Positions 1-14,156 of a DNA stretch of 64,000 nt are shown here, piece by piece. Source of the DNA: Desulfurococcus mucosus DSM 2162 (GTDB taxonomy: Archaea; Thermoproteota; Thermoprotei_A; Sulfolobales; Desulfurococcaceae); NCBI RefSeq assembly GCF_000186365.1, contig NC_014961.1:1240001-1304000 (forward strand). The letters run 5' to 3'. The translations under genes were made by a program, and so were the position numbers. How positions within the stretch are numbered: the first letter of the stretch is position 1; each line of letters begins with the position of its first letter. A model generated the notes under the pieces. It worked only from the letters and a program-made list of their open reading frames with translations. It was not told the DNA's origin and made no database searches.

Positions 1-2
1 GG

Positions 3-86
3 AGATTCAGGCTCCAGGTTGACCCCACCGGGAAGCATAAAAGCTATGTGATAAAAATTGGTGGGAGACGTGTGAAGAAGAGCTGA
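3..86 (+). CDS. C-terminal end of an unidentified protein (partial)
   Basis: The first bases contain an open frame that enters from outside the window and ends with TGA at 84-86. Its last 27 codons read as a basic tail, ending in IGGRRVKKS. Nothing in this fragment identifies a family. The next gene on this strand begins 240 bases later, behind its own promoter, so this fragment probably belongs to a separate unit. The frame is short and could be chance, but the codon use looks normal for this genome. Confidence 0.4.
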   Translation, partial: RFRLQVDPTGKHKSYVIKIGGRRVKKS

Positions 87-278
87 GCCAGGTAGCTTAT
101 TCCCCGCGATCCTATAGTATAATCGGTGAGTCGGCTAAACCAATACCTTGGCTCGGCTGGAAGGCCTTGAGTGCTCTAGAATATTCACCGGCTTAATGAG
201 CCCATGGGAAACTGAATCACCTGCTCTACACTCTTGGCTTTCCTCGGTGATGGAGCCATATATTCTTTGAGGCTGGAT

Positions 279-298
279 GAAAATTTATTATTTTTAAA
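279..298 (+). promoter_or_regulatory. Archaeal promoter of the BREX-like operon
   Basis: A purine-rich BRE-like GAAAA at 279-283 is followed by an AT tract with a TATA-box candidate TTTTTAAA at 291-298. Archaeal initiation about 25 bases past the TATA box puts the RNA start near 320, just ahead of a GAGGGG ribosome binding site (316-321) and the GTG at 328. This supports transcription of the whole 328-7110 gene set as one unit. Positions 87-278 show no gene or RNA that I recognise. Confidence 0.6.
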
Positions 299-327
299 GT
301 AGCAGACTATATTGCGAGGGGCGTGCA

Positions 328-408
328 GTGAGTGACGAAGAGGTATTAATCCTTGAGGAAACCGGAGTTAATCCCGGATCGTTAAAGGTATCGTGGGTGG
401 GATCGTGA
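328..408 (+). CDS. 26-residue leader ORF of the BREX-like operon
   Basis: The GTG at 328 is the first start after the predicted transcription start and has the best ribosome binding site of the operon, GAGGGG six bases upstream. It encodes an acidic 26-aa peptide beginning MSDEEVLILEETG and stops at TGA 406-408. That stop overlaps the next start (GTG 405) in a GTGA arrangement, so the downstream gene is probably translationally coupled to it. It may be a real microprotein, a leader peptide that only sets translation of the next gene, or the N-terminus of the 149-aa protein separated from it by a frameshift. The amino acid sequence matches no family that I know. Confidence 0.45.
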   Translation: MSDEEVLILEETGVNPGSLKVSWVGS

Positions 409-854
409 AGTCTACCACGATGTATCGTGTGGGGAAAATCACACCAGTAGTCAAGATCCGCGGCAACGAGTTAAAGCTGTTTCTACATGAGGAGATGACG
501 AACCCAATCCTAGCTTATTCCAGTAGGAGTGTTGAGGTGGTTGGGAAAGCATTATCCAAGAGGTTCCTGGCAAGAAATAACCCCGATGGCTCCAGGGACA
601 TCCTCCTGCCCATAACAGCGTTTCCAGCGGTATCCGTGTGGCTGGCCGCGTCATACGGGGCGCGCCCATCCGAGGAGCTCCTCGAGAAACTGCTCGACGC
701 CACGCCTAAGGCTGTTGCAGACGTAATCTGGAAGAAAATCGAGTCAAGCCCCGGCGTCGTAGAGGACTGGACGCAGCCACTCATGGACGCGGCGACGCTC
801 CGCGAAACCGCTAAAACCATACGCAGGTACCTCAAAATACACGGGGTGACGTAG
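405..854 (+). CDS. Unknown 149-aa protein, second ORF of the BREX-like operon
   Basis: The reading frame is open from GTG 393, but GTG 405 is the likelier start because it overlaps the preceding stop (GTGA) and has GGTGGGAT upstream. The protein is soluble and predicted mostly helical, with a basic N-terminus (KSTTMYRVGKITPVVKIRG) and a helical C-terminal half. It ends two bases before the methyltransferase start, so it is part of the same operon and probably works with it. I recognise no domain. By position it could take the place of small BREX accessory proteins such as BrxA or BrxB, or act as a regulator. I see no sequence similarity to either, and no helix-turn-helix is obvious. Confidence 0.75.
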   Translation: MKSTTMYRVGKITPVVKIRGNELKLFLHEEMTNPILAYSSRSVEVVGKALSKRFLARNNPDGSRDILLPITAFPAVSVWLAASYGARPSEELLEKLLDATPKAVADVIWKKIESSPGVVEDWTQPLMDAATLRETAKTIRRYLKIHGVT

Positions 855-856
855 GC

Positions 857-3670
857 GTGAAGCTCATCGAGAAAGAGTTCCCGCTGAAAGAAGTCAACCT
901 CATCTCGGAGTACGAGATGAGCTTTTTAAAGATGATACCCAGGGATTTAAAGGAGGCTCTACGCAAGCTTTATAATCTACCAGAGCCGAAAGGACGGAAT
1001 CTGCCAAAAATCAGCAACATCATGTATTATCCCGCTAGGATACCGCCTTCTGCGACGAGGGCCGTCACCCTTGCCTCCGCCCTAAACTACGATCCAGCCG
1101 TGTCTAGGGAGGTGTTCTTGAGGGCCGTGGGGCTGGATAACGCTAGGGAGCTCGCGAAGAAGAGCGGGGCCCTGGTCACGCTCTACATGGCCGACCCGGA
1201 CAGGGGCCTCGTTAAACGGCTCCTCGGCAAGGATCCCCGGGAGATAACGGTCGTCGACCCGATGGCCGGCGGCGGCTCGATACCTCTGGAGAGCCTGAGG
1301 CTCGGCTTCAGGACCATTGCGGGCGACCTCAACCCGGTCTCGTACCTCATCTTGAGGGCCACGATAGAGTTCCCCGCTAAGTACGGGCGGAAGCTCTTGA
1401 AGCTCGTGGAAGAAGAGTTCAGGATGCTGAAGGAGTACACTGAGAGGGAGCTCGGGAGATTCTACGGGGAAGAGGATAAAGGTTACATATACTTCATTAC
1501 GGCAGAGCACGACTGCGGAGGCACTATCCCACTAGCCATGCACCCAGTTCTAAGCAGGAGCAGGCACATCTACGTGAAGCCCGTCTTCAACAAGGAGAGT
1601 AAGTCCGTGAGCTTTGAGATAACAACGGAGATCACCTCCTTCTCCCCCGCTCTCTGCCCGTACTGTGGGAAACCCCTAGGCGAGGAGTACATAAGGATGA
1701 AGTGGGTGAAGAAGCACACGGAGATACTAAGCGAACTGCTCAACGGAAACGAGGAGAGGGCCGAGGAGGCAAGAAAAACCTACGTGATAGCAGCCGTGCA
1801 GAAGGCCAGGGAGCGCTATTCTCCGCCAAGCGAGCTGGATGCCGCGAGGCTGGTCGACGCCGCTAAGGAGCTGGCTAGGTGCGCCCGCGAGGAGATGAGC
1901 AGGGGAGACAGCATCAGGAGGTATCTGCCGGTGTCCGAGATACCGCAGGATAACGAGGTGTTCAGCGAGCTGAGGAAATACGGCATAAAGTACTGGTACC
2001 AGCTGTTCACGCCGCGCGAGCTGTTGGCCCTATACAAGCTCACGAAGTACGTTAGGGAGCGGGCCCGGCAACTGCACGAACAGTACGGCGAGCTCGGAGA
2101 CGCGGTGGCCCTATACATGGCTATTGCGTTAGCTAAGATCATGAACTTTAACAACATTTTATCTCAATGGGATCCTGGTGACGGGACTGTAAGAGACCTC
2201 GTCGGTGGGCAATACGCTCTAACCCGTGGAGTAGAACTTGGAAGCGACTATGCCGAGGGGAGCATACCGTTCAAAGCGATTCCATGGGCTTTAGAGGTAG
2301 AGGAGGGCGAGGCCGAGGAGGAGGCTGAAGAGGTTGAATCAACGAGGGGCGGCATACTGCCCGTGCTCAGGTTGCTGTGCAATAGGCTCGAGGGCCTCTG
2401 GAAGGACGGGCTGGACGCCGTCTACCTGTGGGATGCTAGGGAAATCGATAAGCATCTGCCCGAGAAGAGCGTCGACGTGGTCGATGTCGACCCACCCTAC
2501 TACGACCAGCACGACTACTCCGGCATCTCAGAGTTCTTCTGGGTCATTATCCAGAAAGCCGTGTGGCCCGTACTTAGGGGGCTGTTCCCAGGGGACAGGG
2601 TGAAGCTCGAGGGCTGGGGGCCCGAGTCTCCTGAGTTGCCGAGGCACGCCGAGATTAGGGGTGCACCGCCGAAGAAAGTCGGCGAGGTAAGCGAGTTTGG
2701 AGGGAGCTTCAAGAGATTCCTTGAAGCGGCCTCGGGGATCCTCAAAGACGATGGGCTCCTCGTCGTGTGGTATGCGTATGGAAAGCTCCACGGGTGGGAG
2801 GAGCTCTTCTACAGGCTCTATGAAGCCGGATACGGTGTCACAAAGACATGGCAGGTCTGGACGCAGTCGGGGCAGAGGAGGATTGCCCTCCATACTTCCG
2901 CGTTCTTCACTAGTATAGTTATCGTTGCTAGACCGAGGGTTAAGAGGACGCAGATAGTAAGCTATGAAGACAACATGTTCAAAGACGATGTGAGGAGGAG
3001 CGTTGAGTCGGTGGCCAGCTTTGTACTCGGCACCTATGGTTTAGACGCCTTGAGGGAGGCTACCGTGGTATCAATTGCCGACGGCTTCGCGACCGCGACC
3101 AGGTATTCATATATCGGTGCCTCAGGGTGGCTTGGAGTATACCAGAACCTTGCGAGCATTGCTCTAAGGGAAGCAGTCTACGCGTTCCTTGAGTACCTAG
3201 CTAAGAGGGAGGGTATAAGCAGACTCGATGTGCGTGGATTAGACAGTGTTTCAAGGCTGTACACGTTCCTGCTGGTGGCGTCCGAGAAAGACAGGAACTC
3301 ACCGGCCCTAGTGGTTTCAAGCGACTTCGTGAACAGGGTTAGTCAAGCAGTTAGGGTCGATGAAGCCATTGTAAAAGAATTGAAGATAGGTGGAAGCGGG
3401 AAGGGAACCGTTAAGCTGAGAAGCCCGACGGAGGTGGCGAAGAAATACCCGGAGACCGTTATCGGTGAAAGCATCACATTAGTAGAACAAGTGAGGAAGA
3501 CTATGAGGGAGCTTGGTGTGAGAGCAGCCGAGGATATAGTGTTGAAGAGCGATAGAAGCACCGTGGATCTGGCGAGACTGCTTGCAGCATACTCGTGGGA
3601 TAAGCTTAATATACCGCCGGACGAGAAGGATGTGTTACTCAAGGTTCTATCCACAGGCACGGGTGAGTGA
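857..3670 (+). CDS. DUF1156/COG1743-type DNA methyltransferase (PglXI-like)
   Basis: This 937-aa protein is a predicted DNA amino-methyltransferase. Around residues 55-75 the segment MYYPARIPPSATRAVTLASA resembles the DUF1156 signature (usually WWARRPLAASRAV-like). SAM-binding motif I, DPMAGGGSIPLE, lies near residues 133-144, and the catalytic motif DPPYYDQHDYSG near residue 544. This order with a long insert is typical of COG1743 enzymes. A zinc-ribbon-like insert near residue 220-275 keeps only one CPYCG half; the first half reads HDCGGTIPL and lacks a CxxC pair. Start GTG 857 has GGGGTGA upstream. DUF1156 methylases replace PglX in type 3 BREX systems, and here the neighbour genes encode DUF499 and PglZ-like proteins, supporting an antiviral modification role. 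Target sequence and activity are unknown. Confidence 0.85.
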   Translation: MKLIEKEFPLKEVNLISEYEMSFLKMIPRDLKEALRKLYNLPEPKGRNLPKISNIMYYPARIPPSATRAVTLASALNYDPAVSREVFLRAVGLDNARELAKKSGALVTLYMADPDRGLVKRLLGKDPREITVVDPMAGGGSIPLESLRLGFRTIAGDLNPVSYLILRATIEFPAKYGRKLLKLVEEEFRMLKEYTERELGRFYGEEDKGYIYFITAEHDCGGTIPLAMHPVLSRSRHIYVKPVFNKESKSVSFEITTEITSFSPALCPYCGKPLGEEYIRMKWVKKHTEILSELLNGNEERAEEARKTYVIAAVQKARERYSPPSELDAARLVDAAKELARCAREEMSRGDSIRRYLPVSEIPQDNEVFSELRKYGIKYWYQLFTPRELLALYKLTKYVRERARQLHEQYGELGDAVALYMAIALAKIMNFNNILSQWDPGDGTVRDLVGGQYALTRGVELGSDYAEGSIPFKAIPWALEVEEGEAEEEAEEVESTRGGILPVLRLLCNRLEGLWKDGLDAVYLWDAREIDKHLPEKSVDVVDVDPPYYDQHDYSGISEFFWVIIQKAVWPVLRGLFPGDRVKLEGWGPESPELPRHAEIRGAPPKKVGEVSEFGGSFKRFLEAASGILKDDGLLVVWYAYGKLHGWEELFYRLYEAGYGVTKTWQVWTQSGQRRIALHTSAFFTSIVIVARPRVKRTQIVSYEDNMFKDDVRRSVESVASFVLGTYGLDALREATVVSIADGFATATRYSYIGASGWLGVYQNLASIALREAVYAFLEYLAKREGISRLDVRGLDSVSRLYTFLLVASEKDRNSPALVVSSDFVNRVSQAVRVDEAIVKELKIGGSGKGTVKLRSPTEVAKKYPETVIGESITLVEQVRKTMRELGVRAAEDIVLKSDRSTVDLARLLAAYSWDKLNIPPDEKDVLLKVLSTGTGE

Positions 3671-3676
3671 CGCACC

Positions 3677-6427
3677 ATGGCTTCACGTCTCAAAGAAGTA
3701 CTGGATAAACCATATTTGGAGGAAATAATCCGTCTAAGCCCGGATGACCTAGCGCCATCCTTTGGAACAGTGATTAGAGCGTTAGTAGATCAGCATGCAT
3801 CGGGGGCATGGCCGTACTATAGGCCAGAGGTATTCTTCGATAACACGGAGCTCACAGAGGGCTTCGCAGAAATCATCAAGAATATCGTCAACACCCTCAG
3901 CTCCAGAGGCGTTGACGGGATATTTCTTGATCTCGACATGGGCTCCGGTAAAACACACTTGTTAACACTCCTGTTACACTTGTTCGCGTCCTGCCGGTTT
4001 AACCCCAATGTCTGTACGCGATACATTAGGGACTATGGGAAGAAGACCGGCTTCAACCTCGAGCTGGCTGAGAATACCATTGTGATAGCAGCCGACATGA
4101 GGACCCCTGAAAGCATATATGAGTATCTTAAGCTGACAGCCGGGATCCTCAGGTGGGCTGGCGCGATAGACGCTGCCAACCACATTGAGGAATCCCTGAG
4201 CAACAGGAGGCTACCCGACCCTGTGAAACTCGCCCAAAGCATTCCCCTGAAGAACCACATCCTTATACTCATAGACGAGCTACATTACTCAGCTATTCTA
4301 GGCACAAGGTCCTCTAGAGAGATCGTTAAGGAGTTCCTGAAGTTTGTGTCATCGCTTATGAGTTACAGGAAGGAGATTCAAAAAGAGAAGAGGGGAGGAG
4401 TGGCACTAGTAGTGGCCTCGGCGAGAAGAGACTTTGTAAGATGGAGCGAGATAAAGACCGTGTTTGAGGACAAAGACTTTGCCGGGGTTCTCGAGGCCTT
4501 TATTGATCAGCTGGAACGGGTAAAGGGGTTGGCTGCATCAAGGTGGATGAGTAATGCTGAGGCTCAAAGAATCATTGCTAGGAGGCTCAAGTTGGGAAAG
4601 CCGTTTAACGAGGTCTTCCACGAATCCTTCAACGGGTTTATCGAGAGAGTTATTAAAGCTGACAGCGACTTTCCAGACGCCCACCACATGAGGTCGCTGA
4701 TTAAGGCGTTTGCCATCTACGCGTTGAACGCTCTTGAATCAAATGCACCCATAGTCTCGCCCGCACACTTCAGCGATACAGTGGTAACCGTATTGCTCGG
4801 AGACTCAGACATAGCTAGACGCTATAGAGCCGTATACAGTGAGATACTCAACAAATTGGAGAGCATGGAAAATACAGGGAAGAAAGGTCTCCTACGGTTG
4901 GCTGTAAACATAGTATTCACAGGCACAATCGTTGGTGATGCTAAGAAAATAATTGAAATGGTTAGAGTTGCTAAAACCAGAGAGGTCTCGGACGAGGCGA
5001 TTCCGCTTGTTAGGGAATTAGAATTGAAGGAAATACTCACCAAGGTGCATGGATACAGGGACTCAGATGTCGTGGATGTTGTTAAGGATCTTGAAAGCAT
5101 ACATCCAAACATCCATAGCGTTAAACTCGTAGGCGGTGCTCACGCATACTTTGTTGCACCATCGCGAAACGTGAAAGCAATATACAGGGATATTATCGCG
5201 AGGAATCGGTACAACTACTTGAATAACGAGAAGAATGTAGTGGAGAAGCTAAGCGAATATGTTAACGAGCTGGCTCTTAATGAAGCTCTTGTGCAACAAT
5301 CCGTCGTAGGCAACCTGAACGATCTTGACAAAACACCGCATTCCAGGGATAAGCTCTATATCTACATATACTTCAATGCACCCCTACTCTCTCAATCAAA
5401 ATGGGATGAGACAAAAGGTGATGGAACATTCAGCAGAATGTTAAATGAAGCTAGGGAATACCTGAGGCGCAAGGCGATGCACAACGTGGTCTTCGTTTTA
5501 CCGAGGATTAAGGAAAGCCTTATAAGGGATATGGCTGACTATCTTGCCGTAGAGGATGCGACGAGCCATATAATTAACACCTACCTTGTAAAAGTAGAGA
5601 AAGACGAGTCAACCCGTAGAAGCGAAGAAGACGAGCTCTTCCGCGAACTCCTAAAGATAGAGTTCAAGGATATTGTGGCTGAAGTAGTGGCGAAAATAAA
5701 CGATGCATTAGCATCGTTCTCGAGGGCCGTAGCATCCCTACCGGATAAAGCGTTGTACTACATGCCGAGCGGGGAGGTCAGAGAAGCCGATGTGAAGTTG
5801 ACCCCGGTGAAGAGAGAGGTATCAGGGCTCGAAGACGTGCACAGGGCGATAGACATCATGAGAAGTAGAAGAATGGATATCATAGAGAATACAGCGAAGG
5901 AGTTATATCAGTGGATTTCACAGGGGCCTATATCATTCATCACTTCGGAATCCGATGCATTGCGAGTAATATACAGCACTGTTACCGAGGATTTAAAATC
6001 TTTAAACAAGTACCGGCTCTGCAAGGATCACACGGTGCTACAGAAGGGCGAGAAATCATACTATATACCGCCCTCCTTTATCGAGAAAGCCTTCCAAAGC
6101 GTTGGGGAGGAGGTGAGAAAGAGCTTCGAGAAGGATTATACGGTTCGCACAGTAATCGACGGTACCTGCATGGAAATAGTGTTAGAGCCGAAGGGAGCTA
6201 TAGCAGTAGTAAACCAACCAGTCAGGGCTAGTGTACTGCCTCCCAGACCATCCACTGCTACCAGTATCATGGAGATAATAGACTCTGTTGCTGAGAACGG
6301 TGGCGGAGTTGTAACAATAGAGATCGAGGTAACCAAGGATAACTACGAGCTCGTCAAGGAGACATTGTCGCAAATCATGAAGTATGTTAAAATCAAGGAT
6401 TACAGCAGGAAGGGAGCCGGTAGTTGA
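3677..6427 (+). CDS. DUF499 ATPase (PglY/BrxC-like)
   Basis: A 916-aa P-loop ATPase starting six bases after the methyltransferase, with GGTGAG ahead of ATG 3677. Walker A is DMGSGKTHLL (about residues 87-96), preceded by the conserved segment containing FFDNTELTEGFAEI. Walker B is HILILIDELHYSA (about residues 190-200). The combination with a COG1743 methylase and this motif style point to the DUF499 (COG1483) family, which includes PglY/BrxC. BREX BrxC proteins are commonly about 1200 aa, so this copy is short. It shares TTGA (stop/start overlap) with the downstream PglZ-like gene. The frame looks richer in A/T at third positions than the flanking core genes, consistent with acquired DNA; that impression is by eye. 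Confidence 0.85.
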   Translation: MASRLKEVLDKPYLEEIIRLSPDDLAPSFGTVIRALVDQHASGAWPYYRPEVFFDNTELTEGFAEIIKNIVNTLSSRGVDGIFLDLDMGSGKTHLLTLLLHLFASCRFNPNVCTRYIRDYGKKTGFNLELAENTIVIAADMRTPESIYEYLKLTAGILRWAGAIDAANHIEESLSNRRLPDPVKLAQSIPLKNHILILIDELHYSAILGTRSSREIVKEFLKFVSSLMSYRKEIQKEKRGGVALVVASARRDFVRWSEIKTVFEDKDFAGVLEAFIDQLERVKGLAASRWMSNAEAQRIIARRLKLGKPFNEVFHESFNGFIERVIKADSDFPDAHHMRSLIKAFAIYALNALESNAPIVSPAHFSDTVVTVLLGDSDIARRYRAVYSEILNKLESMENTGKKGLLRLAVNIVFTGTIVGDAKKIIEMVRVAKTREVSDEAIPLVRELELKEILTKVHGYRDSDVVDVVKDLESIHPNIHSVKLVGGAHAYFVAPSRNVKAIYRDIIARNRYNYLNNEKNVVEKLSEYVNELALNEALVQQSVVGNLNDLDKTPHSRDKLYIYIYFNAPLLSQSKWDETKGDGTFSRMLNEAREYLRRKAMHNVVFVLPRIKESLIRDMADYLAVEDATSHIINTYLVKVEKDESTRRSEEDELFRELLKIEFKDIVAEVVAKINDALASFSRAVASLPDKALYYMPSGEVREADVKLTPVKREVSGLEDVHRAIDIMRSRRMDIIENTAKELYQWISQGPISFITSESDALRVIYSTVTEDLKSLNKYRLCKDHTVLQKGEKSYYIPPSFIEKAFQSVGEEVRKSFEKDYTVRTVIDGTCMEIVLEPKGAIAVVNQPVRASVLPPRPSTATSIMEIIDSVAENGGGVVTIEIEVTKDNYELVKETLSQIMKYVKIKDYSRKGAGS

Positions 6428-7110
6428 GGATTCAGTCGCTCATCATCGATGTTTTTGAAACCGCTAGAAACAGGAAGATAACGTACAGGGATTTTTTCAA
6501 GGCATTCATGTCCATCTACGGTGTGCCCGCACGGTTTGAAACTGATGTGTCTTTTATTACTAATCGGCTCCTAAGCCTCGCACACGCCGTGGACACAGCT
6601 GTCGAGAGCCTTGACTTAATGGTTAACCGTGTAAGGGAGCTGGAGGGAAAAGGCTACGTACTACTTGTTGTCGACTGCATAGGGCTCCCCGAGCTATACG
6701 AGATATATACATATGTCGCTGAAGCTGTTAACCCACTATCCATCACAGTAGAGGCCTACATAAACGGCAAGGCAATGACATACAGGTTCAAATACGCTTT
6801 CGGAGAGGGTACAATGCTTGAGGTCGCCAAGAGGCTCGGCGCATCCATACATAGATATATTGATAAAACAGTGCACAGAGACCTAGGGGACCCCGTGGAG
6901 CCGGACACCCTAGTAGAGCTCGCTAAATCAAGGTTAAAGCCTCTTGCGGACGACATAGCGAGGGATGCTCTAAATAGTCGAGCCGCCATCATAGTGGCAG
7001 ACCACGGCTACGATGTCGGTTGCAGAAACGGTAAGTGCTATCTAGAGCATGGAGAAGCAATTAAGCTAGCCAAGATATCGCCGCTCATAATCATGAAATC
7101 GAAAAAGTGA
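6424..7110 (+). CDS. Minimal PglZ-like phosphatase-fold protein
   Basis: A 228-aa protein whose TTG start overlaps the preceding TGA. A hydrophobic strand ending in an Asp (YVLLVVDCIGLPELYE, near residues 77-92) is followed about 110 residues later by AAIIVADHGYDVG and then KCYLEHG. This strand-Asp, DHG and His layout is that of the alkaline-phosphatase-superfamily metal site found in PglZ (PF08665), where the signatures are close to DGLR and SDHG. PglZ proteins are usually several times longer, so only the catalytic core is present, with a helical N-terminal 75 residues. The gene context (DUF1156 methylase, DUF499 ATPase) strengthens the call. Two extra Cys flank the second metal motif (VGCRNGKCYLEHG). 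An alternative is another alkaline-phosphatase-like fold protein. Confidence 0.72.
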   Translation: MRIQSLIIDVFETARNRKITYRDFFKAFMSIYGVPARFETDVSFITNRLLSLAHAVDTAVESLDLMVNRVRELEGKGYVLLVVDCIGLPELYEIYTYVAEAVNPLSITVEAYINGKAMTYRFKYAFGEGTMLEVAKRLGASIHRYIDKTVHRDLGDPVEPDTLVELAKSRLKPLADDIARDALNSRAAIIVADHGYDVGCRNGKCYLEHGEAIKLAKISPLIIMKSKK

Positions 7111-7132
7111 AAACATACTGCTCACTTCATGA
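7091..7132 (+). terminator. Possible hairpin at the 3' end of the BREX-like operon
   Basis: The end of the PglZ-like gene and the bases after it contain two overlapping complementary pairs: TCATGAA (7091-7097) with TTCATGA (7126-7132), and AAGTGA (7105-7110) with TCACTT (7122-7127). There is no T tract after them, so this is only a weak terminator candidate. It may instead influence mRNA stability. Confidence 0.25.
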
Positions 7133-7329
7133 TTGATTACCTCGCATCTCTAAAATACTTCAACACTTGCTACAAGGATTCCCTGGAGCCATGAATTACG
7201 CAGCACACGTACTTTAAGCAATCGCCTCCCGCTAAACCATGCTCCAAGGCGTCCCACGACACCAGCGTCAACAATAATGCTTCCATCTAACCCTGACCTA
7301 CCCCGGCTAACCGGCTCCTGAAGCCTATT

Positions 7330-7660
7330 ACCCCGGGGAAACTAGGCTAGGAGCCTGTAGACATCAGCCTCGACGCATGGGTTGCTGGGTCAACCAGCAC
7401 TGGGGAGCGGCGAGGGCCGGGTAAAGGAGCCGCCACCGGCATCCAAAATTTATTCGTGCCAAGCACTCCCTGGTAACGGGGAGTGCCAGCCCACACCCAG
7501 TAGATCGGGTGGGGCCTACTGCCCTCAGAGGCTGGGACCCCTGTACTTTTGCGCAACCGGTAGCCCTGGTGCACCCTGTAAGGCTGGATCCCCATGGGGG
7601 ATCCGGTGGTGCGGGGCAGCGGGAAAACTTCTCCGCTTGAAGGGGTGTTTAAGCGGTCTG
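7330..7660 (+). other. GC-rich hairpin-rich non-coding region, candidate structured RNA
   Basis: The 658-bp gap 7111-7768 holds no convincing gene. From about 7330 it is GC-rich and full of paired stems: TGCTGG/CCAGCA (7383-7388/7394-7399), an 8-bp stem 7463-7470/7479-7486, CACCC/GGGTG (7494-7498/7507-7511), a nested hairpin with GCACC/GGTGC (7571-7575/7608-7612) enclosing GGATCCCC/GGGGATCC (7586-7593/7597-7604), and CCGCTT/AAGCGG (7633-7638/7651-7656). An AAATTTATT at about 7446-7454 could be a TATA box for a transcript starting near 7475. The strand is therefore likely plus, but perfect stems fold on both. Signature sequences of SRP RNA and RNase P RNA were looked for and not found. Either an unrecognised RNA or a long 5' leader of the next gene. 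Confidence 0.35.
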
Positions 7661-7740
7661 CCTTCTCAACTTGTAGGCACTGCTCGCCGCCAGGGATGCG
7701 AGGAACACTACTGTGAACACCTAGGTGAGCGTGCCATAGC

Positions 7741-7752
7741 TAATATTTTATG
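7741..7752 (+). promoter_or_regulatory. TATA-type promoter of the aminotransferase gene
   Basis: The AT stretch TAATATTTTATG lies 17-28 bases before ATG 7769. This spacing predicts initiation at or next to the start codon, that is, a leaderless transcript, and it favours ATG 7769 over the GTG at 7787. Confidence 0.5.
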
Positions 7753-7768
7753 CCTTGCCAAAGCCTAA

Positions 7769-9173
7769 ATGATTGAGGGGGCTGGGGTGGGCTTGGACAG
7801 GGTTAGGGCTCTGACATCCAGGAGGGTTGAGAGAAGCCTCGAGGTAGTCAGGCTGGACAGGGAGCTGTTTCCTCCTGCTATGGCCCTCAAGTACTATCCG
7901 GTGGCGGTTGCCAGGGCCAGGGGGTCCAGGGTCTGGGATCTCGACGGCAATGAGTACATTGACTTCCTGTCGAGTGCGGCAGTCTGCAATGTTGGCCACT
8001 GCCACCCTGAGGTGGTTAAGGCTGTCAAGGAGCAGGTGGACGAGTTCCTCAACTATACTATTGCATACTTCTACGCGGTCAAGCCGGTTGAGCTCGCTAA
8101 AATGCTCGTCGAGATAACGCCCGGGGGGATATAAGAAGAAGGTGGTCTTCGGCTTCAGCGGCTCCGACGCCGTTGACTCATCGATAAAGGCTGCGAGGGC
8201 CTACACGGGGAGGAAGGGGGTGGTCTCCTTCCTGTACTCCTATCACGGAATGACGTATGGGGCCCTCTCCGCCACGGGAATAGTCGGGCCGAGCGTTAAG
8301 GAGGCTGTCCACCCGATGAGTGAAGTGGTGTTCGCCGAGTACCCGGATCCCTATAGGAACAAGTGGGGTGTGGACGGCTACGAGAGGCCCGTGGAGCTGG
8401 CAAACCTGGCGCTGGAGGAGGTTGAGGAAAGGGTGAAGGAGGCTGGCGCGGCGGCGATAATATTTGAACCCATACAGGGAGACGCAGGAGTCGTAGTGCC
8501 GCCGGCCGAGTTCATCAAGGGGCTCAGGGAGATCGCGGACAAGCATGGTGCAGTCCTAGTCGACGAGGAGGTTCAGGCCGGCATGGGTAGGACTGGCAAG
8601 TGGTGGGCGGTGGAGCACTTCGGGGTGGTCCCCGACCTCCTCGTATCGGCTAAGGCGCTTGGTGGCGGAATGCCTATATCTGCCGTGGTGGGCAGGGCAG
8701 AGATACTGGACTCTGTCCCTCCACCGCTCTTCGCGTTTACTCACACAGGCCACTCAGTGTGCGCGGCTGCCGCCATAGCCACGATAAACGCGATCAAGAG
8801 GGAGGGCCTGGTGGAGAGGGCGGCCATACTCGGCGACTACGCGTTGAAGAGGCTCACGGAACTCAAGGAGAAATACCATGTGATCGGCGATGTGAGGGGA
8901 AGAGGCCTAATGATAGGAGTCGACATAGTGAAAAACCCCGGGACAAGGGAGCCCGACAAGAAGACAGCGCTCAAGATATGCTGGAGGGCATGGGAGAAGG
9001 GCCTAATACTCATAACATTCGGAAAACACAGCAACGTCCTCAGGATAGCACCCCCGCTCAACATACCCCGGGAAGACCTCGACAGGGGCATAGACATAAT
9101 CGAGGAATCCATAAAGGACGTGCTCGAGGGAAGGGTGCCCGATGAAGTACTGGAGTTCCTGAGGCCATGGTGA
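7769..9173 (+). pseudogene. Class III aminotransferase / amino-acid racemase, split by a frameshift
   Basis: Two adjacent frames together encode one PLP enzyme of the acetylornithine/4-aminobutyrate aminotransferase family. The first (7769-8134) has the N-terminal domain, including VWDLDGNEYIDFLSSAAVCNVGHCHP. The second (from about 8129 to 9173) continues with [17 protein letters not shown] and carries [19 protein letters not shown] and [10 protein letters not shown], whose Lys binds PLP. Removing one G from the six-G run 8123-8128 joins them as [18 protein letters not shown], giving about 467 aa, the normal family size. It is therefore either a recent inactivating mutation, a sequencing error in a homopolymer, or programmed slippage. 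Archaeal members include broad-specificity amino-acid racemases and ornithine/GABA aminotransferases. The D-aminopeptidase and dipeptidase nearby make a racemase role attractive, but the substrate cannot be read from sequence. Confidence 0.85.
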
Positions 9174-9478
9174 AAGAAGAAAGCCCACAGTTTTTCTGCC
9201 CCGCTTCTCCAACTATTCATTCCGCCCCTATAACTCAACCGGCTTCGATTTGAATGCATGGCCTTCGGTGGGAACTGCTGGAGGGCCTGCAGCGTGGTTG
9301 CAACATAGTAAGGCGTGAATCCGCGAGAATGTTCAAGGGACGCAGCACAAACGCGATTCGTGGGCCTCGGCTTCAACACCAGTGGTCTTTGATACACTAG
9401 GCTTGCGATTCTCTGCGGGGAAGGCTATTCCGAAACTATTGTGAGAGCTGTCTCCAAGGCTCCAGCAGAGATAAAAAT
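9174..9478. other. Intergenic gap without recognised content
   Basis: These 305 bases separate the plus-strand aminotransferase from the minus-strand D-aminopeptidase; the two genes converge. A T5 run shortly after the aminotransferase stop may end its transcript. No tRNA, repeat or plausible gene was seen on either strand. Confidence 0.5.
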
Positions 9479-10327
9479 CTAGGTGGGTATCACGCTATAT
9501 GGGTATAGCTTGGGAGCGGCTGCCAGTAGGAGCTCGAATATCCTGTATGCCTCAACGATATCCCTTGCAACATACTTCACTGTTTTACCATCGATTCTTT
9601 CTATCAGCGGTAGTAGCTCGGCTACATCGGCCATTTCAGTGCCGAGAAACCTCACTTTGACCTCAACCGGGTATCTTGCCCTGAGGGGCTTAGCCTCCCC
9701 CTTATTCAACCTCTCCACAGCCTCTACAACTGCTTTTTCAAGCTCTTTCCTAATTTTCTCGAGGCTTGGGCTCGAGGAGGCGAATCTGGAGTAGGACTCT
9801 TTAAGTGTAACCCTAGTGGCCCATGGGGTGTATCTCGCGACATCTTCCTCTATCAGCGCCTTGTCCCCGGCAACCATTATCACGGGCTTGTTGAAGTGGC
9901 CGGCAGTATATGTGTTCAGAAGAAACTCGCTTGCCGGTGTGCCGTTTATTTCCAGCGAGTCAATGATCGCACTACTATATGTGTGATCGAACGTCGACTT
10001 TGGGGTCCCAGCCTTTGAGTGGTAGCCTAAGAAAACGACAGCGTCAGCCTTCTCAACCCCGGTCACCATGCTGAGGGGCCTCGGGAAACCCCTTATGAGT
10101 GTCACATATTCTGGCAGGCTCTCGACATCTAGGTTTACCATCGGCCCATGGCTATCTGCAATCACGACCTCGTTGAATCCCCTCTGGTGGAAGGCCTCAG
10201 CTGTCCACAGGGTTATCCTGGTTGCTATTCTCCTAGCCTCACTGAAGAGGGCGCCTTTTATATACAGGTGCTCGCCAGAGGCTATGAAGGGCATGCCCTC
10301 CATATCGATGGACATGAACAGTCTCAT
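9479..10327 (-). CDS. dppA: DppA-type D-aminopeptidase (M55)
   Basis: A 282-aa zinc aminopeptidase of family M55, which removes N-terminal D-residues such as D-Ala from peptides and forms ring-shaped oligomers. All family motifs are visible: the N-terminal SIDMEGM with the metal-binding Asp and Glu, VVIADSHGPM, VFLGYHSKAG, FDHTYSS, and SEFLLNTYTAGHFNKP with the conserved Glu and Asn. The frame is open to 10384, but MRLFMSIDMEG beginning at ATG 10327 is where the family starts; the longer form would overlap the upstream permease stop. The permease lies 43 bases upstream on the same strand, separated by a T6 run, so co-transcription is possible but not certain. Together they suggest import and breakdown of D-residue peptides. 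Confidence 0.88.
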   Translation of the reverse strand: MRLFMSIDMEGMPFIASGEHLYIKGALFSEARRIATRITLWTAEAFHQRGFNEVVIADSHGPMVNLDVESLPEYVTLIRGFPRPLSMVTGVEKADAVVFLGYHSKAGTPKSTFDHTYSSAIIDSLEINGTPASEFLLNTYTAGHFNKPVIMVAGDKALIEEDVARYTPWATRVTLKESYSRFASSSPSLEKIRKELEKAVVEAVERLNKGEAKPLRARYPVEVKVRFLGTEMADVAELLPLIERIDGKTVKYVARDIVEAYRIFELLLAAAPKLYPYSVIPT

Positions 10328-10370
10328 ACAATGTCGCCCCGGACGGGTTTGATTATGTGGGAGTAAAAAA

Positions 10371-11804
10371 TCACTTCCTTTCACCGTACAACTCGTCGTA
10401 GTACTCGCCGAGTAAACCCTTAGCGACTTTCTCCAACCCTATTTCCCTGATCCTCTTGCGCACATAGGCGAAGTATACGAATATGCCCAGCAACACCCAT
10501 GCTATCAGCAGCACATACTCGTAGGGCCACACCAGGCTTACATCCGTTCCAGGAATTAGCGGGGTCACCACGACTATCAAACCAATGATCAGAGCCAGCG
10601 GACCGACGAGCCACGCCGCTGGTACTCTAAATGGCCTCTCGAGCTGCGGATACCTCTTCCTGCATATCAGCATTGTTATGACCGTCGTTAGCCAGCAAAC
10701 ACCCAGTGTCACACCACTCACATCTAGGAACCACACGAGGCCCTTCCTGCCCAGCAGGCCTAGGATGAGGGAGATCGCCAGCACAAACACCATGGCCCTG
10801 GTCGGCACCCCGTACTTGGGGTGGAGGTATTCGAATTGCTTGGGGAACAATCCTCCCCGGGCCAGTGCGTAGATCATCCTTGACACAGTCATTAGAGCAG
10901 GAATCCATGAAGTGACGAGTCCCAGGAACGAGGCCAGCCACGCTACCCATCCCAATGCGGGGTGTATCATTGACATCTCGTCTATCAACCCCCGTGGGGC
11001 AACGGTGGACGATCCCTGCCACGGAATTATCAAAGCACCCGCGAACATCATTAGCGTGTAGAACATGCCAGCCAACACAGCGCTGAGGGCCACCAGGTAC
11101 CCGAACTTCCTCGGGGAGACCTTGCTCTCCTCGGCGATCATGGGGAGGGTCTCGAAGCCTGACAGGTACCCTATGCCCAAGAGCGCGAACCTGAAGGCAC
11201 TCACAGCGGGGTCAGTTCCGGGTTTGAACGGGGGCATGAAGTTGTTTAACGAGCCATATATAGCTGCCACCGCGACTAGTATAGCCCCGCACAGTATCAG
11301 CAGTATAAAGAGCGCGGTCTGGACGTTGCCCGTGAGCTTGGCGCCAAAGTAGTTTAGTGCGAACACTATGAGAGCGCTAATGTAGCCCACTATTATCCAA
11401 GGCAGGTAGACCGGGTAGCCTGCGACATAGTAGAGCGGCATGGTGTTTAGCTGGGGGAACACCCAGCTGAGGAGGAACGCTATCCCTATTACATAGAACG
11501 AGAGAGCCGCGGCGAGCATCCCCAAGAGGAACATCCACGCCACGAAGAACGAGCCCGCTGCCCCCAGCGCGGGGTACACGAACGCGACTTCGCCCCCCTC
11601 CCTGTTTATGGCCGACCCCATCTCGGAGTAAGCTAGTGCCATTAGCGACGCCATAACGGTTGCGACTATGTAGCCTAATATTACCCCTCCCGGGCCGTAC
11701 AAGTCGTAGAACGTCGTGTTCAAGTATACCCAGCTCGTCCCTACAATTCCAGCGACTCCGAGCGCTAGAATGTGGTACCAATCGAGGACCCTCTTAAGCG
11801 ACAT
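10371..11804 (-). CDS. APC-superfamily amino-acid permease
   Basis: A 477-aa polytopic membrane protein with roughly a dozen hydrophobic segments. The first contains GVAGIVGTSWVYL, the helix-1 glycine motif of the amino acid-polyamine-organocation superfamily; the segment GIGYLSGFETLPMIAEE is also typical. The cytoplasmic C-terminal tail is charged and ends in YDELYGERK. It probably imports amino acids by cation symport; the substrate is not evident. It starts at ATG 11804, just inside a palindromic control region that it shares with the divergent dipeptidase, and it precedes the D-aminopeptidase. A TTTTTT run directly follows its stop and may cause partial termination. Confidence 0.88.
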   Translation of the reverse strand: MSLKRVLDWYHILALGVAGIVGTSWVYLNTTFYDLYGPGGVILGYIVATVMASLMALAYSEMGSAINREGGEVAFVYPALGAAGSFFVAWMFLLGMLAAALSFYVIGIAFLLSWVFPQLNTMPLYYVAGYPVYLPWIIVGYISALIVFALNYFGAKLTGNVQTALFILLILCGAILVAVAAIYGSLNNFMPPFKPGTDPAVSAFRFALLGIGYLSGFETLPMIAEESKVSPRKFGYLVALSAVLAGMFYTLMMFAGALIIPWQGSSTVAPRGLIDEMSMIHPALGWVAWLASFLGLVTSWIPALMTVSRMIYALARGGLFPKQFEYLHPKYGVPTRAMVFVLAISLILGLLGRKGLVWFLDVSGVTLGVCWLTTVITMLICRKRYPQLERPFRVPAAWLVGPLALIIGLIVVVTPLIPGTDVSLVWPYEYVLLIAWVLLGIFVYFAYVRKRIREIGLEKVAKGLLGEYYDELYGERK

Positions 11805-11830
11805 ATAGTCACCCCCACCTTCTCTCTAGT

Positions 11831-11866
11831 TATACATGGAAAGATATATATATCTTTCGATGTATA
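11831..11866. promoter_or_regulatory. 36-bp palindrome in the permease/dipeptidase divergent promoter
   Basis: The core GAAAGATATATATATCTTTC (11840-11859) is a perfect 20-bp palindrome, and it extends to 36 bp with TATACAT/ATGTATA arms and one mismatched pair. It lies between two divergent genes, 27 bases from the permease start (11804) and 22 from the dipeptidase start (11888). Because the palindrome itself is a TATA-rich element at the right distance from both starts, it can serve as a two-way promoter, an operator for a dimeric regulator, or both. An Lrp/AsnC-type regulator binding here would be reasonable for amino-acid genes; that is inference. Confidence 0.7.
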
Positions 11867-11887
11867 AGAAGAAACCGTATCGGTTGG

Positions 11888-12919
11888 GTGAACAATGTGT
11901 ACCCAGTCATAGACATGCACGAAGATGTATCCGCGTACTTCTTATACCACGGAGGCGGCGAGCCACTCGGAGATCTGAGGAGCGACATACCCGGGCGCGA
12001 TGCCGACATACCCAAGTACTTCCGGGGAAATGTGAAGCTGGTCTTCGCCGCAATATTTCCTGGCATTGAGACCTTTCGGCCGGAGGAGTCCAAGAAGCTG
12101 GAAAAGCTGTATGGGAAATGGCTCCCGGCGATCGGCTACAGAGCCCCTCAAACCGATGTCTTAGAGCACTTCGCGATATACTACAGGCTCGCGGAGGCCT
12201 ACCCTGAGATAACCCTGGTGGAGTCTGCGGGCGATGCGGAGAGGGTGCTGTCGGAAGACGGGAAGATAGGGTTGTTGATTCACATGGAGGGAGCTGAGGC
12301 AATAGACGACCCCTACGACCTCGTGTTGCTGAAGAAGATGGGGTTGAGGAGCCTTGGGCTTACGTGGAACTACAACAACAAGTACGGCTCCGGGTGCACC
12401 TCTAAAAAAGACTACGGGCTAACACCCGAGGGGGAGGAACTTGTGAGGATGGCGAACAAGCTCGGCATAATCATCGACCTAGCGCACGCCGGAAAGAAAA
12501 CAGCCCTCGAGACCATGGCCGTCAGCAAGAAGCCCGTGATAATAAGCCACGCCAATGTGCGAAAATTTGTTGACACTCCCAGGAACATTGACGATGAAGT
12601 CCTAGAGGCACTTCATAAAAACGGGGGCGTCGTAGGGCTCTCGGTAATAGGCCCACTAATTGCGAGCAAGCCAAAGCCGACAATGGAGGACCTTGTTCAG
12701 CACTTCCTTTACATTCATGAAAGATATGGGGCGGACTTGCTGGCGATAGGGACGGACTTCCATGGGTTGCTAGGCCTCCCGGCGCCGGAGGGCCTGGAAT
12801 CCGTGGACAAGATACAGTCGCTCCTTCAAAGGTTAGGGGAGAAGGGGCTGGGCGATAACGATCTAAGGAAAATAGCCTACGAGAATGCATTGAGGGTTAT
12901 AAAGTCCAACCTTGCCTAG
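11888..12919 (+). CDS. Membrane-dipeptidase-like peptidase (M19)
   Basis: A 343-aa metallopeptidase of the renal dipeptidase family M19, which uses a binuclear zinc site and cleaves dipeptides, including those with a D-residue at the second position. Conserved segments are VIDMHEDVSAY near the N-terminus (usually DGHND), LIHMEGAEAID with the bridging Glu, IIDLAHAGKKT and VIISHANVR with zinc His residues, and LAIGTDFHGLLG. There is no signal peptide, so a cytosolic enzyme is expected. Start GTG 11888 has GGTTGG just upstream, and GTG 11897 is an alternative. A T6 run follows the stop. With the D-aminopeptidase and racemase-like gene nearby, a shared role in D-amino-acid peptides is likely. Confidence 0.9.
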   Translation: MNNVYPVIDMHEDVSAYFLYHGGGEPLGDLRSDIPGRDADIPKYFRGNVKLVFAAIFPGIETFRPEESKKLEKLYGKWLPAIGYRAPQTDVLEHFAIYYRLAEAYPEITLVESAGDAERVLSEDGKIGLLIHMEGAEAIDDPYDLVLLKKMGLRSLGLTWNYNNKYGSGCTSKKDYGLTPEGEELVRMANKLGIIIDLAHAGKKTALETMAVSKKPVIISHANVRKFVDTPRNIDDEVLEALHKNGGVVGLSVIGPLIASKPKPTMEDLVQHFLYIHERYGADLLAIGTDFHGLLGLPAPEGLESVDKIQSLLQRLGEKGLGDNDLRKIAYENALRVIKSNLA

Positions 12920-13305
12920 TTTTTTGTCTCAAACCTCAACCTGCTTTGTAACCAGTTGCTCTACGCCTTGGGCAGTGTGACAATGCTACTGGACATACAC
13001 GATAGTTCGGACTCCAATGCAGGAAGCTATATTATGTAAGGGGTTGCAATACTCGCGGTCTGCCTCCAGCACTAATGTGCCTAGGGGTACTTGCAGGGCG
13101 AGGATCTGCTGGAGAATTAGGCGAGCCTGGAGCGGAAACGGTAAAACATGCATATATGGTGAGCTTAGTTAAGGAGGAAAGCGTCGGCGACCAGGCACTG
13201 CCCATGCCTAGCGAAGGGTCAATGAAGCGGGAAGACAAAGGTTAAAGCTTTTAATCCTCCTAATGTATCTGGGACACAATGCTTGCACTAGACGGTGTCA
13301 AGGCC
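12920..13305. other. Intergenic gap with possible gene debris
   Basis: No confident gene lies in these 386 bases. There is a T6 run at 12920-12926 after the dipeptidase. A 56-codon plus-strand frame (ATG 13075 to TAA 13245) shows no family resemblance. A TATA-like CTTTTAAT at about 13248 is followed at 13279 by a short frame beginning MLALDGVKA, which soon stops and runs antisense to the permease fragment. The region looks like rearranged remains, perhaps of the transporter locus that dppC once belonged to. Confidence 0.4.
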
Positions 13306-14026
13306 TCAGAGATGCCTGAGTCTCGGGTTGACGTACTCCTCGATCGCGTACCCTATTAGTGCCGTGGCCTCGACCGTCAGGGTTATCATGAGCCCTGGCG
13401 CCACTATCCACCACCACTTGCCGCTCGAGATGGCCCCGCTGTTCATTGCCCAGTAGATCATACCTCCCCAGGACTTCTGGGTGGGATCCCCGAGGCCTAA
13501 GAAGCTCAGCGAGGCCTCGGCTATTATCGCACCACCCGTCCTGAGCACCACAAACGCGACAAGCAGGGGGTAGAGCTGGGGCAGTATGTGAACCCTCATT
13601 ATCCTACCCGAGCCTGCACCGTACGCCTTCGCAGCCTCGATGTAGAGGCTACCCTTGAGCGAGGCCACTTGGGCCCTCACAAGCCTGGCTACACCGGGCC
13701 ATGTGAAGGCCGCTATGGCTATCACGATGTTCTGGTAGTCCTGTCCCATGAACGCGGCCATCAATATCATGAAGGGCAGCACCGGAAGCAGGAGCATGAT
13801 GTCGGTGATCGTGGAGAGGATATCGTCCACGAGGCCGCCGTAGTAGCCAGCGATGAGGCCCACTAGAGTCCCCAGCACCACCGTGGCCAAGGCGGCTGAG
13901 AGGCCCACTAAGAGCGATATGCGAGAGCCATACACAAGCTCGCTAAATATGTCCTGACCCACGTCGTTTGTGCCCAGTAGGTGCTTCGGCGAAGGCGGTA
14001 GGAAGGGTTGATTAACAACGTCCCAG
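13306..14026 (-). pseudogene. dppC: dppC/oppC-type ABC permease lacking its N-terminus
   Basis: The frame encodes the conserved part of a peptide ABC transporter permease. KHLLGTNDVGQDIFSELVYG is the usual segment before the permease domain, and the EAA-like loop reads EAAKAYGAGSGRIMRVHILP. Several membrane helices are intact down to the C-terminus IGYAIEEYVNPRLRHL. DppC proteins normally start about 70 residues earlier with a cytoplasmic end and first membrane helix. Here recognisable sequence (NQPFLPPSPKHLLGT) runs only to about position 14015, then meets a CRISPR-like repeat at 14027 and a stop near 14057. GTG 13962 could still start a 218-aa product without helix 1. No dppB, ATPase or binding-protein gene is present, so this is probably a non-functional remnant. 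Confidence 0.8.
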
Positions 14027-14115
14027 CTTTCAATCCTCTTTGCATTGAGGTTGAATTAACCACTATAGCTGGTACAGGTGTAAACCTATTTCTTTCAATC
14101 CTCTTTATATTGAGG
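14027..14115 (-). CRISPR. Two-repeat CRISPR remnant
   Basis: Two 24-bp repeats, 14092-14115 and 14027-14050, are identical at 22 of 24 positions. Read on the minus strand they begin CCTCAAT, contain AAAGAGG, and end in ATTGAAAG, the usual 3' end of crenarchaeal CRISPR repeats; CCTC and GAGG can pair as the repeat stem. They enclose a 41-bp unique spacer (14051-14091), a normal archaeal length. The copy at 14027 has the two changed bases, as expected for the trailer-end repeat. Only about 40 bases separate the other end from the TrmI gene, leaving little room for a leader. No cas genes are present. It is an orphan remnant or a solo miniature array. Confidence 0.7.
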
Positions 14116-14156
14116 CCAGGTTTAACAAATGTGACATATGGCGAGGGTGGTATGTG

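Follow-up and report, generated by a model that had tools for sequence, protein, structure and literature searches.

A 5'-truncated dppC at the right edge of an inserted DNA segment framed by two CRISPR mini-arrays in Desulfurococcus mucosus

Why does a gene for a peptide-transporter permease break off beside a CRISPR repeat? The question is raised by the genome of Desulfurococcus mucosus DSM 2162 (G000), a single contig (C1) of 1,314,639 bp, from which a stretch of 64,000 nucleotides, G000:C1:1240001-1304000, was analysed and is referred to here as the window. The features at the junction are as follows (window coordinates).

13306..14025, minus strand: dppC-like permease fragment (designated dppC'), 5'-truncated; stop codon at 13306-13308, homology ending at 14023-14025
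14027..14050, plus strand: inner repeat of the right mini-array; one mismatch to the genome consensus repeat
14051..14091: spacer S2, 41 nt; no convincing protospacer
14092..14115, plus strand: outer repeat of the right mini-array; no leader beyond
14116..14156: gap of 41 nt from the outer repeat to the TrmI stop codon
14157..14975, minus strand: TrmI/GCD14-type tRNA methyltransferase (PF08704), the right flank

The open reading frame of dppC' matches PF00528 (BPD_transp_1) over positions 1-184 of 184 (98.3 bits, E 5.7e-28). Compared with the DppC/OppC permeases of this family, the remaining part is 83% identical to the intact DppC of genome G021 and 81-82% identical to that of a Desulfurococcales MAG locus (L127), but its first ~45 residues and its partner genes are missing. 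An earlier note on this DNA had placed the end of recognizable DppC sequence close to the first repeat, and the junction alignment confirms this: the homology runs to the W codon at 14023-14025, with a gap of 1 nt before the repeat at 14027. The description of the remnant as half a gene has to be corrected. The intact DppC of L127 comprises 284 residues, 45 of them ahead of the junction W, and by comparison with L127 and L066 dppC' is cut at its 5' end and keeps ~239 of 284 residues (~84%). In three intact relatives the 24 nt preceding the W codon share only 3, 3, and 6 positions with the repeat, which rules out a chance resemblance of dppC to the repeat and indicates that the join is sharp and that the repeat is foreign to dppC.

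The loci of the four closest homologues (L066, L067, L068, and L127) share the gene order binding protein-DppB-DppC. That the remainder of the transporter operon is absent, as the same note had stated, is borne out: no orthologue of DppB or of the binding protein was found in the genome, the best matches being only 37% and 31% identical and therefore paralogues. A tblastn search of five G000 stretches and the window for dppB, the binding protein, and the 5' end of dppC beside other arrays returned only chance-level matches besides dppC' itself. No equally short DppC without a repeat was noticed among the matches from 41 genomes and 80 loci, of which the four closest homologues (L066, L067, L068, and L127) were examined.

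The repeats belong to a real type I-A CRISPR system. The 24-nt repeat occurs in 161 copies in the genome (pattern search, up to 3 mismatches), 50+111 copies as compared with 0 for control patterns, and zero chance matches are expected within the window. The genome search for the same repeat and for cas genes that the earlier note had called for located three large arrays and type I-A cas genes; Cas1, Csa1/Cas4, Cas2, Cas4, Csa2, Cas3 helicase, Csa3, and Cas6 are encoded next to the leader of array A1. The two-repeat array reported in the note therefore consists of genuine repeats but is not isolated, because a second mini-array lies 14.4 kb to its left. The inventory is as follows (genome coordinates).

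Array A1, G000:C1:969467-972318: 45 repeats, plus a solitary repeat at 967460
Array A2, G000:C1:1000325-1003300: 47 repeats
Array A3, G000:C1:1028459-1032539: 64 repeats
Left mini-array, G000:C1:1239499-1239587: repeat-spacer-repeat, just outside the window
Right mini-array, G000:C1:1254027-1254115 (window 14027-14115): two repeats

D. mucosus thus has three large arrays and two mini-arrays by our count; the genome paper counted 3 CRISPRs (PMC3111991). Genome-wide there are 155 spacers, which are 37-44 nt long (41 nt in 48 of them). The repeats of the right mini-array are 92% alike and enclose a 41-nt spacer, and the locus combines near-identical direct repeats, a spacer of regular length, the same repeat elsewhere in the genome, and cas genes, as expected of a CRISPR array. 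No leader is present beyond 14115: identity there is no higher than between unrelated sequences, at 44-46% with the A1-A3 leaders and 41% with the leader of the left mini-array. The DNA at 14116..14156 is probably a remainder of the former intergenic region, or possibly a broken spacer.

A leader of ~200 bp does accompany the left mini-array; it begins at G000:C1:1239588 and is 89-93% identical to the leaders of A1-A3 by BLAST (204-240 nt) and 84-86% identical by global alignment (~200 nt). With one spacer and this leader the left locus, G000:C1:1239499-1239790 (L064), is a minimal array that is potentially active. The two mini-arrays have the same orientation, with the leader on the high-coordinate side by comparison with A1-A3. 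The left repeat starts (1239499) 2 bases past the stop codon of a gene for a small methyltransferase, which ends at 1239497, and TrmI is encoded beyond the right mini-array.

The empty site is preserved in relatives. TrmI has matches in 39 of 40 family genomes, including its own (E<=0.001), and the flanks were compared in 11 relatives (G001, G002, G007, G019, G020, G049, G050, G051, G053, G054, and G055). All 11 have the two genes, for the small methyltransferase and for TrmI, side by side and convergent, and the distance between the stop codons is -45 to 231 nt; in D. mucosus it is 14,659 nt. A segment of ~14.66 kb has therefore been inserted between two convergent genes in this Desulfurococcus lineage. 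A close strain, D. mobilis DSM 2161, is represented by a draft genome with 99.88 ANI to D. mucosus (PMC4711178). Its left edge is at G000:C1:1239498/1239499, ~500 bases left of the window, and dppC' forms its right edge. Direct repeats in the same orientation at the edges, together with the empty site in all relatives checked, are features of an integrative element. Misassembly at the locus is unlikely because the genome is finished, having been determined with 454 and Illumina reads to about 120x coverage and with a 13-kb paired library (PMC3111991).

These comparisons also bear on the proposal, made in the earlier note, that insertion of an array, or else repeat-mediated recombination, removed the greater part of a transporter operon native to this site. 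Such a deletion would account for the sharp cut of dppC at the repeat and for the partner genes that are missing from the genome. However, the synteny comparison that was expected to reveal an intact dpp operon found no transporter between the adjacent flanking genes of any of the 11 relatives, the congeners G001 and G002 have no close DppC (best matches 40% and 38%), and the neighbours of dppC' are other genes that do not occur at this site in relatives. Deletion in place is accordingly very unlikely. What survives of the proposal is a role for the repeats in a rearrangement, and neither of the results that the note had listed as refuting it was obtained; no native operon was lost here.

The inserted segment contains the following features in addition to those listed above (window coordinates).

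1..14115, no strand: inserted segment within the window; flanking genes adjacent in relatives
857..3670, plus strand: DUF1156-like DNA methylase (PADLOC HmaB, E 7e-35, and DUF1156_MTase, 6e-17; PHROG 10183 DNA methyltransferase, 2e-57)
3677..6427, plus strand: AAA ATPase-like protein (weak PADLOC HmaC match, E 2.5e-6)
6424..7110, plus strand: 228-aa protein without a family match
7769..9173, plus strand: class-III aminotransferase in two frames (7769-8134 and 8142-9173), frameshifted
9479..10384, minus strand: M55 D-aminopeptidase (PF04951)
10371..11804, minus strand: amino acid permease (PF13520), 81% identical in G020
11888..12919, plus strand: M19 dipeptidase (PF01244)

One frame of the aminotransferase matches PF00202 positions 10-85 and the second matches positions 91-401, and three-frame translation places the frameshift near 8128-8141. 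Matches to the methylase occur in 17 of 40 genomes, its own included, and outside its own genome none exceeds 42% identity. The ATPase-like protein has no match in Pfam or NCBIfam. Hma defence systems bring helicase, methylase, and ATPase genes together. Judged from these matches, the row of methylase, ATPase, and 228-aa protein (window 857-7110) is a possible diverged defence module: like the Hma (HmaB/HmaC) and DUF1156 modules in PADLOC it has a methylase and an ATPase in tandem, but the matches are weak and partial, the NCBIfam score of the methylase (93) is far under the cut-off of 1000, and the other island proteins tested have no Hma match. Since the 5 proteins scanned with PADLOC gave weak HmaB and HmaC matches and otherwise no Hma component, the row is not assigned to Hma.

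The genes of the island, those for peptide use among them, are patchily distributed in the family. The M19 dipeptidase has matches in 7 of 40 family genomes, including its own; the only long close ones are in G020 (67%) and G055 (64%), and the match in G053 is a 41-residue piece at 73%. In G020 the M55, permease, and M19 genes form a block, which indicates that the family has had parts of the island for a long time and could be taken to mean that the island is ancestral and has been cleanly lost in all relatives. This would require repeated precise losses, and the G020 block is on a different contig (C25) from the methyltransferase-TrmI pair (C18), so that an ancestral island is scarcely probable. 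No integrase or recombinase was found with Pfam among 10 ORF products of the island, a set that takes in dppC' and both pieces of the aminotransferase, nor for 4 of them with NCBIfam and PHROGs, and no replication, viral, or plasmid hallmark gene was recognized in the island. No autonomous circle is therefore identified, which counts against the entry by recombination at repeats that is proposed below.

The two edges of the insertion are not equivalent: the leader side of an array is on the left and the trailer side is on the right, as if an array-bearing circle had been opened within its array. We infer, with a probability of roughly 0.6, that the segment entered by recombination at CRISPR repeats, that its own array was split between the two ends, and that the join between dppC and the repeat is older than this event. 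In the scheme that we favour, a circular or circularized DNA would have carried one array, with dppC' on the leader-distal side and the leader and the methylase and ATPase genes on the other. A crossover or break within the array would have opened the circle so that each end of the insertion retained part of the array, the left end receiving repeat-spacer-repeat with the leader and the right end dppC' with repeat-spacer-repeat. In an older event, the terminal repeat of the array would have been joined to dppC at about codon 46, with loss of the 5' end, dppB, and the binding-protein gene.

The same edges bear on the idea that the island is an oversized spacer, namely that the Cas1-Cas2 integrase put 14.4 kb of DNA into an array, with a duplicated repeat left on either side. 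A repeat does directly border the DNA between the mini-arrays at each end, and dppC is cut exactly at the edge. However, the inserted DNA begins on the left with a complete leader, a part of an array that is not expected in captured DNA and that makes this origin unlikely, and the 155 ordinary spacers are 37-44 nt. The facing repeats are also not identical, which leaves this as the least probable of the explanations considered here.

Several observations count against the preferred reading as well. The facing repeats of the left and right mini-arrays differ at one base and their spacers differ too. In relatives there is no sign of an array at the chromosomal target, and G001 and G002 lack the repeat; a homologous target array is consequently putative. 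If a complete array had been the target, TrmI should have a leader beside it, and none is there. The lack of an array and of a leader at the target favours the main rival, in which the repeats are passengers: a linear fragment with a mini-array at each end, taken for example from between two donor arrays, would have been placed by end joining or by recombination unrelated to CRISPR. The preserved intergenic DNA, 1+41 nt, which is a normal gap for the methyltransferase/TrmI pair, is in keeping with such an origin. Random breaks, on the other hand, would not favour having a repeat at both outer edges, at distances of 2 nt and 41 nt from the stop codons of the flanking genes, and a 1983-bp cassette is equally repeat-bounded at two other places in the genome. 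We regard the passenger-repeat explanation as unlikely, although it comes closest to the recombination at repeats that we favour.

The cassette, with the structure repeat-1983 bp-repeat, is at the distal ends of A1 and A3, at G000:C1:967460-969490 (L061) and 1032515-1034551 (L108). The two copies are 93% identical and mosaic, and on both sides the identity stops inside or at the repeats, the aligned stretches being 967463-969491 and 1034548-1032515; the product is a protein of ~500 residues without a family match. Gene order is also broken at these arrays. A row comprising pyrophosphatase, tRNA-Gly, and the 984371 gene cluster is contiguous in G002, G019, and G049 (3 of the 9 relatives examined), whereas in D. 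mucosus the tRNA-Gly gene faces the distal repeat of A3 and the 984371 cluster is behind the cas genes of A1. The split fits an inversion between A1 and A3 but is suggestive only, because the other six relatives are arranged otherwise: G001 has another neighbour, and for G007, G020, G050, G053, and G055 gene 992472 is the closest neighbour that was located on this side. Together, the repeat-bounded cassettes and the gene order broken at A1 and A3 support the action of repeats as joints; this support comes from other sites in the genome, and its gene-order part is ambiguous (3 of 9 relatives), which weakens it as evidence for the island.

The distal ends of A2 and A3 are ~20-25 nt from tRNA-Arg and tRNA-Gly, respectively (L062:6323-6398 and L108:2574-2650), the gap at A2 being 21 nt. 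A further break in gene order beside an array is seen at A2, where the genes adjoining the leader (G000:C1:993510-1000115) are inverted relative to the congener G002.

A bolder reading would make the repeats standing attachment sites. Repeat-ended DNA, such as the 14.4-kb island and the 2-kb cassette, would leave its site in circular form and enter a different array or repeat, either through homologous recombination or aided by the spacer-integration machinery. The arrays would then also act as a platform for gene capture and would carry defence genes. We consider this quite improbable.

Arrays at the joints of rearrangements are already known: in Thermotogales, CRISPR loci are reported to lie where inversions have occurred (DeBoy et al. 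2006, as cited in PMC5052741). The likeness lies in the position of the arrays, but the Thermotogales cases are inversions, whereas in D. mucosus several genes have been inserted, mini-arrays stand at both ends, and one gene is cut at a repeat. Small arrays on mobile DNA are also familiar: archaeal viruses carry mini-CRISPR arrays that lack cas genes, have one or two spacers, and sometimes possess a host-like leader (PMC6858448), and the conjugative plasmids pNOB8 and pKEF9 bear small CRISPR loci (PMC4390879). Unlike these, the D. mucosus pair frames a chromosomal island without a recognized viral or plasmid hallmark gene. For Sulfolobales, direct repeats have been described as recombining with one another inside CRISPR loci (PMC4390879), and a review envisages mobile DNA entering host arrays when solitary repeat units recombine with resident repeats (PMC8616872). 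Repeat-repeat recombination of this kind would put foreign DNA inside an array, and the D. mucosus locus is a candidate natural product of an event that the review only envisages. In the literature searched, which mostly excludes subscription papers and was available in part (including PMC3111991, PMC4711178, PMC8616872, PMC5052741, PMC4390879, PMC6858448, and PMC5637354), no report of an island framed by mini-arrays was found.

The locus makes the proposal of integration through CRISPR repeats testable, as it offers, in a finished genome, an island with a mini-array on either side, a gene truncated no more than 1 base from a repeat, 11 relatives in which the site is empty, and a second kind of repeat-bounded cassette. 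The observations suggest that large pieces of DNA became joined at CRISPR repeats and that orphan mini-arrays, usually taken as dead arrays, can mark the borders of acquired DNA.

The CRISPR system itself looks patchy across the family because the repeat was not found in the congeners G001 and G002. Among the 40 other genomes searched, nearly the same repeat occurs in runs only in G009 (8 copies) and G012 (76 copies), and G038 has one stray match. For the spacers of the two mini-arrays, S1 and S2, no match covering 80% of either was found in phage records, which gave weak partial matches only, and no exact 26-nt match was found in IMG/VR. No identical pair of spacers common to different arrays, sought as proof of exchange, was present among the 155. 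Within A1, two spacers (970455 and 970779; G000:C1:970455-970820, L061) are 88% identical over 41 nt and are perhaps two versions of one target.
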